Below, piece by piece: positions 36,644 through 64,000 of a stretch of DNA of 64,000 nt. Made by a program: the position numbers and the translations under genes. Origin of the DNA: Clostridia bacterium (GTDB taxonomy: Bacteria; Bacillota; Clostridia; Oscillospirales; CAG-272); the NCBI GenBank assembly GCA_017466445.1, contig JAFTUC010000018.1, positions 1-64,000 of the forward strand. Direction: 5' to 3'. Numbering within the stretch: the stretch's first letter is position 1; each line of letters begins with the position of its first letter. The notes beneath the pieces were generated by a model. That model ran no database searches and had not been told where the DNA came from. It saw only the letters and a list, made by a program, of their open reading frames with translations.

Positions 36644-37714
36644 ATGCGAAAAATCAAAGAAAAAACATGCCATTCCGCGAGGAGTGCAAGATCTCTGGTC
36701 GCGCTTGTACTTCTTGCTTGCATGTTTCTTTTGGGAATACCCGTGAGCGCGAGGGAAAATAAAAACGCGAGGCAGGTCCTTCTCGGCGGAGAGCTTTTCG
36801 GTACGAGGATAAGATCGGACGGTGTTCTTGTTGTCGGTGTCGCCTGCGTAGTCGGAGATGATGGGGAAAGGTGCCCTGCAAAAGAGGCCGGCATCCTTCC
36901 GAAGGATATAATAAAGAAGATCAACGGAAACAAATTGTCGGGCACTGAGGATCTCGTTAATATAATAGAGCAAAGCGGCGGAGAAAAGCTCACTGTAACT
37001 CTGATGCGTGACGGTAAGGAAATGAGTGTAACGCTTGTCGCAACCAAGGATAAAAGTGGTGAATATAAGGGCGGTCTTTGGGTGCGAGACAGTATAGCGG
37101 GCATCGGAACCGTGAGCTTCATCGATCCCGAAACAGGCAACTTTGCCGGGCTCGGACACGGAATATGCGATCCCGATACGGGAGTTCTGATCCCGGTCAA
37201 AGAGGGAAGTGTGTACGGCGTTATATTGAGCGATGTCAAAAAGGGAAGCAGCGGAAAGCCGGGAGAACTGCGCGGACGCCTTGACGGAGAGATAAAGGGA
37301 AGGGTAAGTAAGAATGATCAAAGCGGCGTTTACGGAAATCTTTCGGCGCTTCCCGAGGATGCGAGAACTGTTGACGTTGCCTTTAAAAACGAGGTGAAGA
37401 CGGGAAAGGCAAGCGTTGTATGCTCTCTTGACGGTGAGGCGAGTGAATATGAGGCTTATATCGAAAAGATAATCTCCGCTGACGGTGCGGTAAAAAATTT
37501 TCTTATAAAAATTACCGACCGTAGACTTCTTGCTCTTACAGGCGGTATCGTTCAGGGAATGTCGGGCAGCCCGATTATACAAGACGGCAAGCTCGTGGGC
37601 GCTGTAACCCACGTCCTTATAGACGACCCAACCAAAGGCTACGGCATTTTCGCCGAAAATATGCTGGAAACGGCGCGATCGGTAGCGAACAAGGAACTGA
37701 AAAAAGTATCCTAG
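36644..37714 (+). CDS. spoIVB: SpoIVB, S55-family sporulation serine protease
   Basis: A forespore-made PDZ protease that signals to the mother cell and triggers pro-sigma-K cleavage by SpoIVFB. 356 residues: N-terminal TM/signal anchor (about 17-33), PDZ domain (about 60-130), S55 domain. The catalytic triad reads as His172 (GLGHGICD), Asp292 and Ser307 (GMSGSP); Asp and Ser are 15 apart as in B. subtilis (363/378). In most Firmicutes spo0A follows directly; here a 26-kb accessory array does. Every downstream spoIVB fragment begins at the codon for Ser307. The C-terminal 50 residues may have been supplied by the adjoining cassette. Confidence 0.95.
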   Translation: MRKIKEKTCHSARSARSLVALVLLACMFLLGIPVSARENKNARQVLLGGELFGTRIRSDGVLVVGVACVVGDDGERCPAKEAGILPKDIIKKINGNKLSGTEDLVNIIEQSGGEKLTVTLMRDGKEMSVTLVATKDKSGEYKGGLWVRDSIAGIGTVSFIDPETGNFAGLGHGICDPDTGVLIPVKEGSVYGVILSDVKKGSSGKPGELRGRLDGEIKGRVSKNDQSGVYGNLSALPEDARTVDVAFKNEVKTGKASVVCSLDGEASEYEAYIEKIISADGAVKNFLIKITDRRLLALTGGIVQGMSGSPIIQDGKLVGAVTHVLIDDPTKGYGIFAENMLETARSVANKELKKVS

Positions 37715-37738
37715 AAGAGTGTTTTAACTATCGTCAAA

Positions 37739-37777
37739 AAACAAACCCAAGACAATCAATTTGTCTTGGGTTTGTTT
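37739..37777. terminator. Bidirectional terminator after spoIVB
   Basis: A perfect 16-bp stem AAACAAACCCAAGACA / TGTCTTGGGTTTGTTT ends spoIVB and the leftward AraC gene of cassette A. It is unrelated to the GTTGTCC hairpins of cassettes C-H. Confidence 0.9.
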
Positions 37778-37782
37778 ATGAA

Positions 37783-38565
37783 TTATTTAGATGATTGATA
37801 TTTTTTTACAAACTGAGTAGGAGTAATTCCCATATAATCTTTGAATTGTTTACTGAAGTAGTAAATATCAGGATAGTTACACAATTCGGCCACCTGTTTA
37901 ATGGAGTATTTTTTAAGTTGTAGCAGTTCACAAGCGTGGCTGATCTTTAATTGTATAATATATTTTTTTGGTGAAATATTGTATCTTTCTTTAAAAAGCT
38001 TTTTAAAATAAGTTTCGCTAATTTCGCACATAGAAGCAAGCATTGGAACTGTAAGCTCATCGTTTAAAAAATCTGTGTTAATTGCATTAATAGCAGGTTG
38101 TATTATTTTCTGATGCAATGTTAAATTAAAATTTTCTTTATTCATTTCATCAAGGATTTTATATAGCAGCGAAAAACATTCAAAATAGTTTTTTTCTTTA
38201 TCTGTTGCCCAGCGAGCGAAGATTTTTTTGAATAATGCTCCTATACTCTCATTCTTAGGCATATCTAACACAAATGCTTTTTGTGAAATTGGTTTATCGG
38301 TTTGAAAATCAATTAATATGCAATCACCGGATTTGTGGAAAACTTCATATTTTGAAACGGCTCCTTTTGGTAAAAACCTTATCGTGTTCCTTCGCGTTTT
38401 TAAAATAAGTTCATCAAAAAGCACGGTTGCTTCTCCTGAAAAATGAAAAATCAATTCATTGCAATGTAGGAACGGGTGAAAAGAAATATGGGGTTCGGGA
38501 TAGATTTCTTTTCCTACTAATGCAATTCGTTCAATTTTAGTTACTATAAAATCCAAATTCATCAT
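37783..38565 (-). CDS. AraC-family transcriptional regulator (cassette A)
   Basis: 260 residues: an N-terminal cupin-like sensing domain (about 1-130) and a C-terminal double helix-turn-helix (about 160-258) with the AraC signatures ELTVPMLASMCEISETYFKKLF and PDIYYFSKQFKDYMGITPTQF (each quoted in part). It is divergent from the glycyl radical enzyme genes and is probably their activator. The ligand is unknown. The stop codon lies just past the shared bidirectional terminator. Confidence 0.9.
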   Translation of the reverse strand: MMNLDFIVTKIERIALVGKEIYPEPHISFHPFLHCNELIFHFSGEATVLFDELILKTRRNTIRFLPKGAVSKYEVFHKSGDCILIDFQTDKPISQKAFVLDMPKNESIGALFKKIFARWATDKEKNYFECFSLLYKILDEMNKENFNLTLHQKIIQPAINAINTDFLNDELTVPMLASMCEISETYFKKLFKERYNISPKKYIIQLKISHACELLQLKKYSIKQVAELCNYPDIYYFSKQFKDYMGITPTQFVKKYQSSK

Positions 38566-38594
38566 ATCACCAAAAATAACAAATTGTTGTAATT

Positions 38595-38623
38595 ATTATA
38601 ATGCATATTAAGCGTTAAATCAA
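38595..38623 (-). promoter_or_regulatory. Promoter of the cassette A regulator
   Basis: On the minus strand: TTGATT, 17 bases, TATAAT. Confidence 0.7.
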
Positions 38624-62302: not shown

Positions 62303-62307
62303 ATAAC

Positions 62308-63141
62308 TTATACATATTGCTCATGTAAAATCGTTTCAACATGCGTCCTTCGGTATTCGGTAGGAGAAAGACCTGTTTTGTTTTTAAAAAGTCTCGAAAA
62401 ATATAATGGATCGCTATATCCGACAGAATTGGATATTTCCATAATATTTGCCGTGCATTCCCGTAATAATTTTTTTGCCGATTCTATCCTTTTCTCGATT
62501 AAATATTCTTTTGGAGAGATTTGATATCGATCCGAAAATTGTCTGGTCAAATATTCGGGGGAAAGATACAGCGTTTGCGCGATGTTCTGCATCGTTATCT
62601 TCCTTTCAAAATTATAGTCAATGATCCTTTTTGCGCTTTCCGCTATATCGACGTTCAATTTATGCCTTGCGTCTTCCAACAAAAGAGAGAAAAACCGATA
62701 TATCAGCGCTATTTGGCAACACCGCGCATATTCACTCTTCTCTCCTATCTGTTGATATAAATCGTCAAGCAACCGTTCCATTTCGTAATATTCTCCTACC
62801 TTAATGATTGGATTGGCACCGTCAATAGAAAGAAGCTCCATATATCTTTGTACGGTTTGTCCATACAGACCAACCCATTGGATGCTCCAAGGCGTTTGTG
62901 CGATGTAGTGAATCTTCTCTCCGGGACACATAACGAGAAGGTCGTGAGCCTTCAGATGAATTGTCCCACTTTTGTGAAAAAAATCAGCTTCCCCCTCGTT
63001 TACGAGGACGAAGAGAAAATAATTTCGTATTTCCGGACCGTAGCTATGATTTTCGGTCCTTATTCTTTTACCGCAATCATACATCCCGATATCGTTATTC
63101 TCGTACAGGTCGCTCTCCAACCGAAATAAAGTTTTATCCAT
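62308..63141 (-). CDS. AraC-family transcriptional regulator (cassette H)
   Basis: About 277 residues from ATG 63141 (five bases after AAGGGGGG; a second ATG is three bases further upstream). N-terminal cupin with FHKSGTIHLKAHDLLVMCPG; C-terminal AraC HTH (IAQTLYLSPEYLTRQFSDRY; VGYSDPLYFSRLFKNKTGLS). A TATAAT with an extended TG lies upstream on the minus strand (63168-63173). Divergent from the partial transporter gene. Confidence 0.9.
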   Translation of the reverse strand: MDKTLFRLESDLYENNDIGMYDCGKRIRTENHSYGPEIRNYFLFVLVNEGEADFFHKSGTIHLKAHDLLVMCPGEKIHYIAQTPWSIQWVGLYGQTVQRYMELLSIDGANPIIKVGEYYEMERLLDDLYQQIGEKSEYARCCQIALIYRFFSLLLEDARHKLNVDIAESAKRIIDYNFERKITMQNIAQTLYLSPEYLTRQFSDRYQISPKEYLIEKRIESAKKLLRECTANIMEISNSVGYSDPLYFSRLFKNKTGLSPTEYRRTHVETILHEQYV

Positions 63142-63217
63142 CATATCCCCCCTTACATACAACATAAATTATATCATAAGATATCAAAAAAGTCCATATT
63201 GTTTGTAAATTAATCTA

Positions 63218-63246
63218 TTGGAAAATAACCGATTGCGTGATATAAT
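63218..63246 (+). promoter_or_regulatory. Promoter of the cassette H transporter
   Basis: TTGGAA, 17 bases, TATAAT with an extended TG, about 20 bases before the ATG. Confidence 0.6.
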
Positions 63247-63265
63247 TCTTCCAAAGGAGTGGAAC

Positions 63266-64000
63266 ATGGATTTTTTGATCGTTTTTATACTTTGTTCTCT
63301 TGCTACCGCAAAAGTATCGTTACAAAGTCGTTTTAGTAAAAAGCATTTAATTACAAGCTCAGACGCTTCGTTTTTTAACGCAACCGTTTTTTTGACCGCC
63401 GCGCTTTTGTTCTCTCCCAATATACCGGATACATCTTTTCAAACGTGGCTGTTTTCCATAATTTTTGCTTTGTTTACCGTGTTGTTTCAGCTATCGTATA
63501 CCAAAGCGCTTTCCATAGGCAACGTATCCTTAACTGTGATGATCGTAAATTTGAGCATGCTGTTTCCCGTAGCCATATCTGCTGTAATCTATCGAGAGTC
63601 CTTATCTTTTATACGCCTGATCGGAATCCTTTTGACGGTAGCATCGTTCGTTCTGTGCATTGAATTAAAATCAAAGACTTCTATATCGTGGAAATGGTTT
63701 TTGCTTTCCACCTTTGCCATGCTCTCCAACGCCGGAATTTCCATAACGCAAAAGGTATTTGGAAGCAGTTCTTTTGCTATCGAAAAGGAATCCTTTGTTG
63801 CCTGTTCTTATTTGCTCGCGTTTCTTATCGCAATACTCGTTTGCGGTGTCGGCATCCTAAAAAAAGAGCCCACAACCGTTTCCAAAAAAATCCCGTGTTA
63901 TTTATTTGCTACATCGATAGGAATCATTCTTGCTATTTTTCAATGGCTGAATACTTATGCGATCGCAACGATTGACGGAACGTTCTTGTTCCCTATGTAC
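63266..64000 (+). CDS. EamA/DMT-superfamily transporter, partial (cassette H)
   Basis: An open frame from ATG 63266 (AAAGGAGTGG upstream) runs to the end of the window, 245 codons without a stop. It has repeated hydrophobic segments typical of EamA proteins: N-terminal MDFLIVFILCSLATAKVSLQ, then KALSIGNVSLTVMIVNLSML, and near the edge ATIDGTFLFPMY, which parallels the ALDGVIFFPSF and LLPGAIFFPTL regions of the cassette D and G carriers. The C-terminus is cut by the window. It is the third such transporter in the array. Confidence 0.85.
   Translation, partial: MDFLIVFILCSLATAKVSLQSRFSKKHLITSSDASFFNATVFLTAALLFSPNIPDTSFQTWLFSIIFALFTVLFQLSYTKALSIGNVSLTVMIVNLSMLFPVAISAVIYRESLSFIRLIGILLTVASFVLCIELKSKTSISWKWFLLSTFAMLSNAGISITQKVFGSSSFAIEKESFVACSYLLAFLIAILVCGVGILKKEPTTVSKKIPCYLFATSIGIILAIFQWLNTYAIATIDGTFLFPMY

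Follow-up and report, generated by a model that had tools for sequence, protein, structure and literature searches.

Why does the 3' end of a sporulation gene recur time and again downstream of the intact gene? The question is posed by a contig of 71,357 bp from a Clostridia bacterium (JAFTUC010000018.1; assembly GCA_017466445.1, 86.6% complete), whose bases 1-64,000 were analyzed here and are called the window. The window carries an intact spoIVB gene followed by a row of gene cassettes, and copies of the spoIVB tail stand between the cassettes. With moderate confidence, we consider the joints between cassettes and tails to be attR sites made by the large serine recombinase (LSR) of separate elements that target spoIVB, an enzyme which the recombinase-free cassettes probably borrow.

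A search of the whole assembly with the PF05580 (SpoIVB peptidase) profile returned one full gene (match at 37061-37666) and six partial matches, all on the contig of the window (41791, 48659, 55440, 56903, 62011 and 65253). Counted from the first SGSP codon, the tail copies start at 41794, 48662, 55443, 56906, 62011 and 65256, five of them inside the window and the sixth outside it on the same contig, and they hold 50, 46, 46, 46, 46 and 45 codons after the junction. These matches confirm the recurrence that a preliminary description of this DNA had reported, and they extend it by the copy at 65256; the shared orientation with spoIVB, also reported there, holds for all copies. All six tails begin at one and the same codon, and successive junctions are 4,232, 6,868, 6,781, 1,463, 5,105 and 3,245 bp apart. 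Among the seven copies, spoIVB included, pairwise identity ranges from 51 to 83% over 111 nt, the values of the 65256 copy being depressed by a 3-nt deletion. Because the differences per pair concentrate by codon position (5.67, 2.87 and 18.6 over 111 nt for six copies, 65256 excluded), the pattern suggests that the tails have been under long protein-level selection.

In a search of 146 genomes of the family, 29 tail-only rows among the matches listed started at profile position 175 in 25 cases, at 176 in two, and at 174 and 171 in one each. Each of the six tails on the contig is preceded by an arm of ~25 bp, which is absent from spoIVB and on which the preliminary description was silent. The best form of the arm is TGTTGTCCCTACTTGACCACACTC, and between arm and tail stands GTG in the first four copies, GCG in copy 5 and CTG in copy 6. 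A matrix built from 49 fragments scored at least 11 in 45 of these very 49 (median own score 35) and gave 8 matches in one mononucleotide shuffle of 399 kb, both strands. When the 49 fragments were compared with 49 intact genes, T occupied position -2 in 48 of the fragments and G position -1 in every one, and both letters are present in 49/49 intact genes; upstream of TG the two sets diverge. TG is the common core of the junctions. Of the serine codons that follow it in the fragments, 27 are AGY and 22 TCN, and both types occur within the array of the window. Since the two codon types are mixed directly after a fixed TG, the exchange fits a 2-bp overlap, the size used by serine recombinases.

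Within the family, 23 of the 146 genomes showed at least two profile matches. Related genomes, where the preliminary description had proposed to look, carry such fragments too: arm plus tail was read in 19 family genomes (genomes are denoted G, loci L and contigs C), comprising 16 cassette arrays (G000, G007, G012, G014, G024, G032, G034, G038, G043, G044, G056, G068, G089, G092, G093 and G125) and three LSR elements (G053, G105 and G055, the last with one profile match only). Arrays were not confirmed in the multi-match family genomes G002, G036, G037, G101 and G142. An order-wide search of 394 genomes yielded further multi-match genomes, and seven of the nine examined, from three other families, had arm plus tail (G410, G528, G569 and G539; G480 and G631; G538); by the search pattern used, none was seen in G427 and G574. 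When genomes of named species were scanned for the motif, 23 stretches turned up; the 22 contigs that hold them are all titled as Clostridia or Oscillospiraceae metagenome-assembled genomes and come mostly from sheep, goat and deer gut. Viral contigs gave no match to the search pattern.

A comparison of cassettes across genomes, likewise proposed in the preliminary description, showed that a given cassette can recur in another genus next to different genes. For the same right end in different records, 12 usable pairs are 85-97% identical in the 400 nt leading to TG, and in the tail beyond it identity is 45-75%; these are not 12 independent events, because several pairs share one cassette. A 13th pair (L042) was unusable, as its locus ends 35 nt after TG. 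In the five pairs profiled in 50-nt windows, identity drops at TG within that resolution. The GH5 (glycoside hydrolase) cassette of the window (59058-62115) is 78% identical to a cassette directly after spoIVB in G093, which belongs to another genus. G081 holds a match to the sigma-regulator cassette that follows 56906, at 91% over 1,219 nt from TG, and there this cassette stands directly after intact spoIVB. Judged from these alignments, the cassettes are real units common to different genera.

No recombinase was found in the cassettes of the window. A protein search for recombinase domains yielded LSR genes beside spoIVB tails in G105 and G053, where spoIVB is broken at the same TG and followed by the inverted arm (GGAATGTCCGTGTGTTATAATAGGGACAACA in G053), next to ParA- or ParB-like genes. 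The G053 protein (P0001) then served as the LSR query, with at most the three best candidates per genome scored, and 120 relatives of at least 53% identity were among the matches listed. Arm and spoIVB tail follow the LSRs in seven of the seven contexts read at 47% identity or above, the query included: directly in G055, G105, G371, G647 and the record MT836038.1, and with one further gene between in G053 and G677. Three adjacent LSR open reading frames (ORFs) lie next to one end in G053, G055, G371, G647, G677 and MT836038.1, identified by Pfam in G053 and G371 and by likeness in the other four; the contig of G105 starts just before the last LSR. PF00239 and PF07508 were both detected in seven scanned LSRs, four from G053 and G105 and the three of G371. 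A phage collection held one LSR at 48% identity (MT836038.1, used here) and one at 32%, plasmids held one at 34%, and no relative was found among viral contigs. G148, whose LSR match is 36% identical, has a whole spoIVB and no arm plus tail in the 280 bases read. MT836038.1 (L193) is filed as a phage; it carries LSR ORFs, a spoIVB tail and, by likeness, cobalamin-like bacterial genes, which gives it the look of a piece of bacterial chromosome into which an element has integrated. Six further LSRs of array genomes were set aside: their identity to the spoIVB type is 26-33%, and no arm and tail were recognized near them by eye among the motif matches listed.

Left joints with a broken spoIVB were readable in five genomes (G053, G105, G371, G647 and G677). 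The left joint consists of the 5' part of spoIVB and the inverted arm, the right joint of the arm and the spoIVB tail, the same form as the cassette joints. In G371 both joints lie on one contig, 50.5 kb apart, and are followed by the spoIVB tail and by sigG-like and SpoIVA-like genes, named from sequence likeness rather than a profile; a sigG-like gene likewise follows the last tail of the G089 array. G008 and G076, of the genus of G371, have an unbroken spoIVB-sigG region with the same neighbors, the empty site to the filled one in G371. In four of five elements, the two halves of the inferred attP agree with each other, in inverse orientation, at 17-21 of 25-26 positions; in G647, with the arms as set here, they agree at 10 of 26. 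Because LSR elements inside spoIVB show the same right joint of arm and tail, spoIVB is broken in five genomes and the empty site is seen in two congeners of G371, the cassette junctions are, by their form, attR-like. The earlier interpretation is supported in part: insertion at one target site is borne out, and a spoIVB-targeting recombinase type exists; the cassettes of the window yielded no recombinase.

We propose that cassettes hitch-hike with these elements, which would need standard reactions only. The LSR beside the joint would catalyze insertion (attP x attB) and excision (attL x attR). An element in front of an array may excise via a more distant attR and carry cassettes away; after arrival in a new host, it may excise via the nearest attR and leave a cassette behind, whereby spoIVB would become whole again and the old tail be pushed downstream. 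Cassettes would persist through their cargo, i.e., AraC-regulated catabolic enzymes and toxin-antitoxin-like pairs, and the next element may remobilize them. Such hitch-hiking would explain why there is only one orientation, why the recombinase is missing and generally rare, and why right ends are shared.

Several observations weigh against this proposal. The genome of the window is without an LSR of the spoIVB type and none lies on the contig; its one recombinase-domain match (PF07508, contig C24) is without a significant resolvase domain (PF00239). The LSR type is rare, with 5 of 395 family genomes at E <= 1e-80 (one only 36% identical) and 2 of 394 genomes in the order at E <= 1e-110, so that most arrays are now without their enzyme. 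Neither an element with a complete second attR behind it nor a circular form was seen, and G055, in which arm and truncated tail are followed by further genes to the contig end and the 5' part was not found, is only suggestive. The halves of the split spoIVB lie on different contigs in most cases and on one contig in G371 only. In the only clean left-end pair, G081 and the window, the tail is 71% identical and the body, from the stop codon on, 89% over 700 bp, a difference that argues against the spoIVB tail traveling with its cassette. Either the tails took on the host type by subsequent conversion, or homologous recombination within the tail contributes. The idea that each element brings its own replacement 3' end is at odds with the recombinase-bearing elements, which bring none and break spoIVB at the junction. 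The closest tail was in the same genome for 20 of 43 fragments (up to 97%), in another genome for 21, with two ties; homogenization or close-relative donors therefore also play a part. A whole-gene test for 5'/3' mosaics was weak: 3' ends are more alike among array genomes (mean difference 0.183 vs 0.131), the tail is intrinsically conserved, and ten duplicate loci are in the set.

The joints would be the same if the cassettes were independent circles, arm joined to tail, inserted at the TG of spoIVB by an LSR acting in trans (attR-type site x attB), much as the cassettes of integrons rely on an integrase encoded elsewhere. Each such insertion would regenerate equal sites, and the failure to find a recombinase in the cassettes would suit circles as well. 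We nevertheless regard them as unlikely, for attR x attB is, to our knowledge, not a standard serine-integrase reaction, and tail and body of the G081/window pair do not match. Serine integrases are known to recombine attP with attB and, when a directionality factor is present, attL with attR, as shown for gin (PMC5595907).

Slightly less probable still is homologous recombination between spoIVB tails, by way of a circle or fragment with a tail, which would make the arms relics of old LSR insertions. The tails offer 100-140 bp of homology and are often alike within a genome, and in the one clean left end high identity begins near the spoIVB stop codon and not at TG. On the right side, however, identity drops at TG in the 12 usable pairs instead of at varied places in the tail, and 140-bp stretches of 70-80% identity are poor recombination substrates. 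Local tandem duplication of the spoIVB 3' end with subsequent insertion of unrelated genes is very improbable. It would suit the 20 fragments closest to a copy in their own genome. Duplication is contradicted by the same start in four families, by the foreign arm before nearly every copy, by the TG boundary, by the recurrence of cassettes across genera amid different neighbors and by the 21 fragments closest to another genome.

Tyrosine-recombinase (PF00589) matches are present in the genomes concerned, nine above the cut-off in that of the window, all on other contigs, and some in 17 of 17 fragment-bearing genomes searched, with only one each in G038, G125 and G024. A tyrosine integrase, dropped as the enzyme once the 2-bp overlap was evident, or a transposase with terminal repeats would fit the arm's also being inverted near cassette left ends, but can practically be dismissed, as no tyrosine recombinase was found among 2,743 ORFs of the 89 loci scanned (DDE transposases were not searched for), the AGY/TCN mix right after TG leaves no overlap of 6-8 bp, and LSR elements share the very joint.

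Many left ends hold a further arm ~250-290 bp after TG, followed by the reverse complement of the spoIVB left half-site 27 bp from the arm start. This second site was present in 13 of 29 arms picked by pattern, with scores of 10-23 against a background 99th percentile of -12.4. Its center varies (TC in six, TA and CA in two each, CT, CC and TG in one each), and from their arrangement the second sites look like inverted attL sites. At 59075 the cassette body joins a second site directly; others were noted at L091 (5070), L034 (3698) and elsewhere. About 160 bp after TG (55603-55653 and 62171-62221 in the window, and similar places) lie 51-bp palindromes in which the arm meets its own inverse, with T runs after them. 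They resemble attP, but those counted are 51 and not 52 bp long and without a centered TG; several end in a T run, which makes terminators as likely. They may be terminators, decayed attP sites or both.

Chromosomal integrons are arrays of cassettes with a common recombination site, toxin-antitoxin cassettes included. The spoIVB arrays resemble them in the shared site and in toxin-antitoxin cargo; unlike in integrons, no IntI-type tyrosine integrase was found near the array, the sites are gene tails with P-type arms, and the overlap is 2 bp. The staphylococcal and enterococcal cassette chromosomes (SCC and ECC) at rlmH are the closest working analogs, with serine-recombinase sites at one conserved gene, variable cargo and several attR behind the target. 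Multiple attR are given for 16 of 32 ECCs (PMC6222049); in the window's contig, six arm-tail joints stand behind spoIVB, in keeping with the SCC-like logic suggested earlier. The array is not an SCC by its target, which is spoIVB within the protease motif and not rlmH, nor by recombinase genes: no ccr-like gene was found in the window's cassettes, and the recombinases found elsewhere are PF00239 + PF07508 proteins that sit in separate elements. Moreover, the core is TG and not the TATCATAA motif, the repeat is a gene tail of ~140 bp and not an att repeat of ~50 bp, and a separate element with an LSR trio breaks the target gene.

For the founder element, the closest analog is gin in gerE of Bacillus cereus, which is not a phage, carries three serine recombinase genes and interrupts a sporulation gene (PMC5595907). 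Its target is another gene, and gin excision re-forms gerE during sporulation; the parts of that paper seen contain no cassette array. Streptococcal integrative and conjugative elements in mutT, traG and hsdM have, according to PMC4701971, an LSR triplet at one end, a disrupted target, direct repeats of 2-8 bp and sometimes genes between triplet and target. This triplet architecture is shared by the related elements inside spoIVB, not by the window's array. Differences are the spoIVB target and the recombinase-free cassettes alongside. In the G371 element, no conjugation gene was recognized among the 10 of 58 listed ORFs scanned. Relative to SCC/ECC and gin, the spoIVB target and the recombinase-free cassettes are new. 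Our literature search, which left subscription literature mostly aside, returned, among the papers listed, none recognizable as a description of spoIVB as such a target and none joining spoIVB with a serine recombinase. The portions seen of PMC5894183 treat spoIVB solely as an expressed gene, and those of PMC5553647 describe a prophage in sigK and name spoIVA only as a CRISPR target.

A broader idea, to which we give slightly less than even chances, is that spoIVB serves an order of gut Clostridia as a docking port, where LSR-trio elements enter and leave the protease motif and load and unload recombinase-free cassettes (catabolic operons, toxin-antitoxins) by choice of attR, integron-like and tied to the ability to sporulate. 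If true, many uncultured gut Clostridia would share catabolic operons via one defined site, much as resistance genes are shared by integrons, but by means of serine recombinases. Mobile DNA and sporulation would be linked directly, as LSR elements break spoIVB and cassettes leave it whole. The motif would also offer a route to cargo discovery, and the elements would supply candidate LSR/attP/attB triples for genome engineering.

Most cassettes pair a minus-strand AraC regulator with enzymes or transporters encoded on the plus strand (Table 1). Across the units of the window, the cargo comprises a glycyl-radical enzyme with its activase, dehydrogenases, GH28, GH5 and EamA transporters; one unit has a sigma-70-like regulator and another a DUF5104 protein. 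The AraC-like gene of cassette 7 was a seed of the AraC profile built in this analysis, so its label does not come from Pfam.

Table 1 Features of the spoIVB array in the window.
Feature	Position	Strand	Details
Intact spoIVB (S55 peptidase)	36644..37714	+	356 codons; 5' part ends ...GGIVQGM; PF05580 4.3e-77
Junction dinucleotide TG in spoIVB (attB-like core)	37560..37561	+	immediately 5' of SGSP codons
Cassette 1	37562..41793	+	AraC (-) 37783-38565; pyruvate formate-lyase-like enzyme 38735-40852; radical-SAM activase 40928-41758
Arm + TG + tail copy 1	41766..41943	+	TG 41792-41793; 50 codons from 41794
Cassette 2	41794..48661	+	AraC (-) 41963-42745; 3-dehydroquinase-like, zinc dehydrogenases, GFO/IDH/MocA and short-chain dehydrogenases
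Diverged arm + TG + tail copy 2	48635..48799	+	TG 48660-48661; 46 codons
Cassette 3	48662..51636	+	AraC (-) 48905-49801; GH28 49908-51572
Remnant of spoIVB tail	51637..51702	+	21 codons with stop, no preceding arm; reads GYGIFIENMLNAANIPIAKAS
Cassette 4	51703..55442	+	AraC (-) 51874-52770; EamA transporter 52849-53715; glycoside hydrolase-like 53694-55364
Arm + TG + tail copy 3	55416..55580	+	TG 55441-55442; 46 codons
Cassette 5	55443..56905	+	DUF5104 protein (-) 55799-56329; ORF without Pfam match (-) 56367-56846
Second site	55693..55735	+	arm + TG + reverse complement of spoIVB left half-site
Arm + TG + tail copy 4	56879..57043	+	TG 56904-56905; 46 codons
Cassettes 6a/6b, fused at about 59075	56906..62010	+	sigma-70-like regulator 57270-59009; AraC (-) 59174-59896; GH5 59992-61113; EamA 61113-61979
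Fused boundary (attL-like second site)	59075..59117	+	arm directly joined to inverted spoIVB half-site; tail missing
Arm + CG + tail copy 5	61984..62148	+	CG 62009-62010, sole non-TG core; 46 codons
Cassette 7, left part	62011..64000	+	AraC-like (-) 62308-63165; runs on to TG at contig 65254-65255, tail copy 6 at 65256

Beyond 65256, the contig of the window carries an AAA_14/DUF4143 ATPase. A sugar kinase is among the cargo of other arrays. A cassette of locus L033 contains a Fic/Doc gene with a Phd-like antitoxin (1694-2316; by Pfam, the Phd match of 28.5 bits being below the 29.8 cut-off), and the Fic/Doc and Phd-like pair of L036 (2983-3599) is 84% identical to it in DNA. In L083 and L084, of the genus of the window, AraC-like and catabolic-looking genes follow spoIVB, with one PF05580 match per genome. 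In L160 (G027:C13, 2628-5560), genes for a glycyl-radical enzyme and activase, named by likeness, separate spoIVB from a sigG-like gene, and no second tail is present; this may be an old cassette that has lost its joint.

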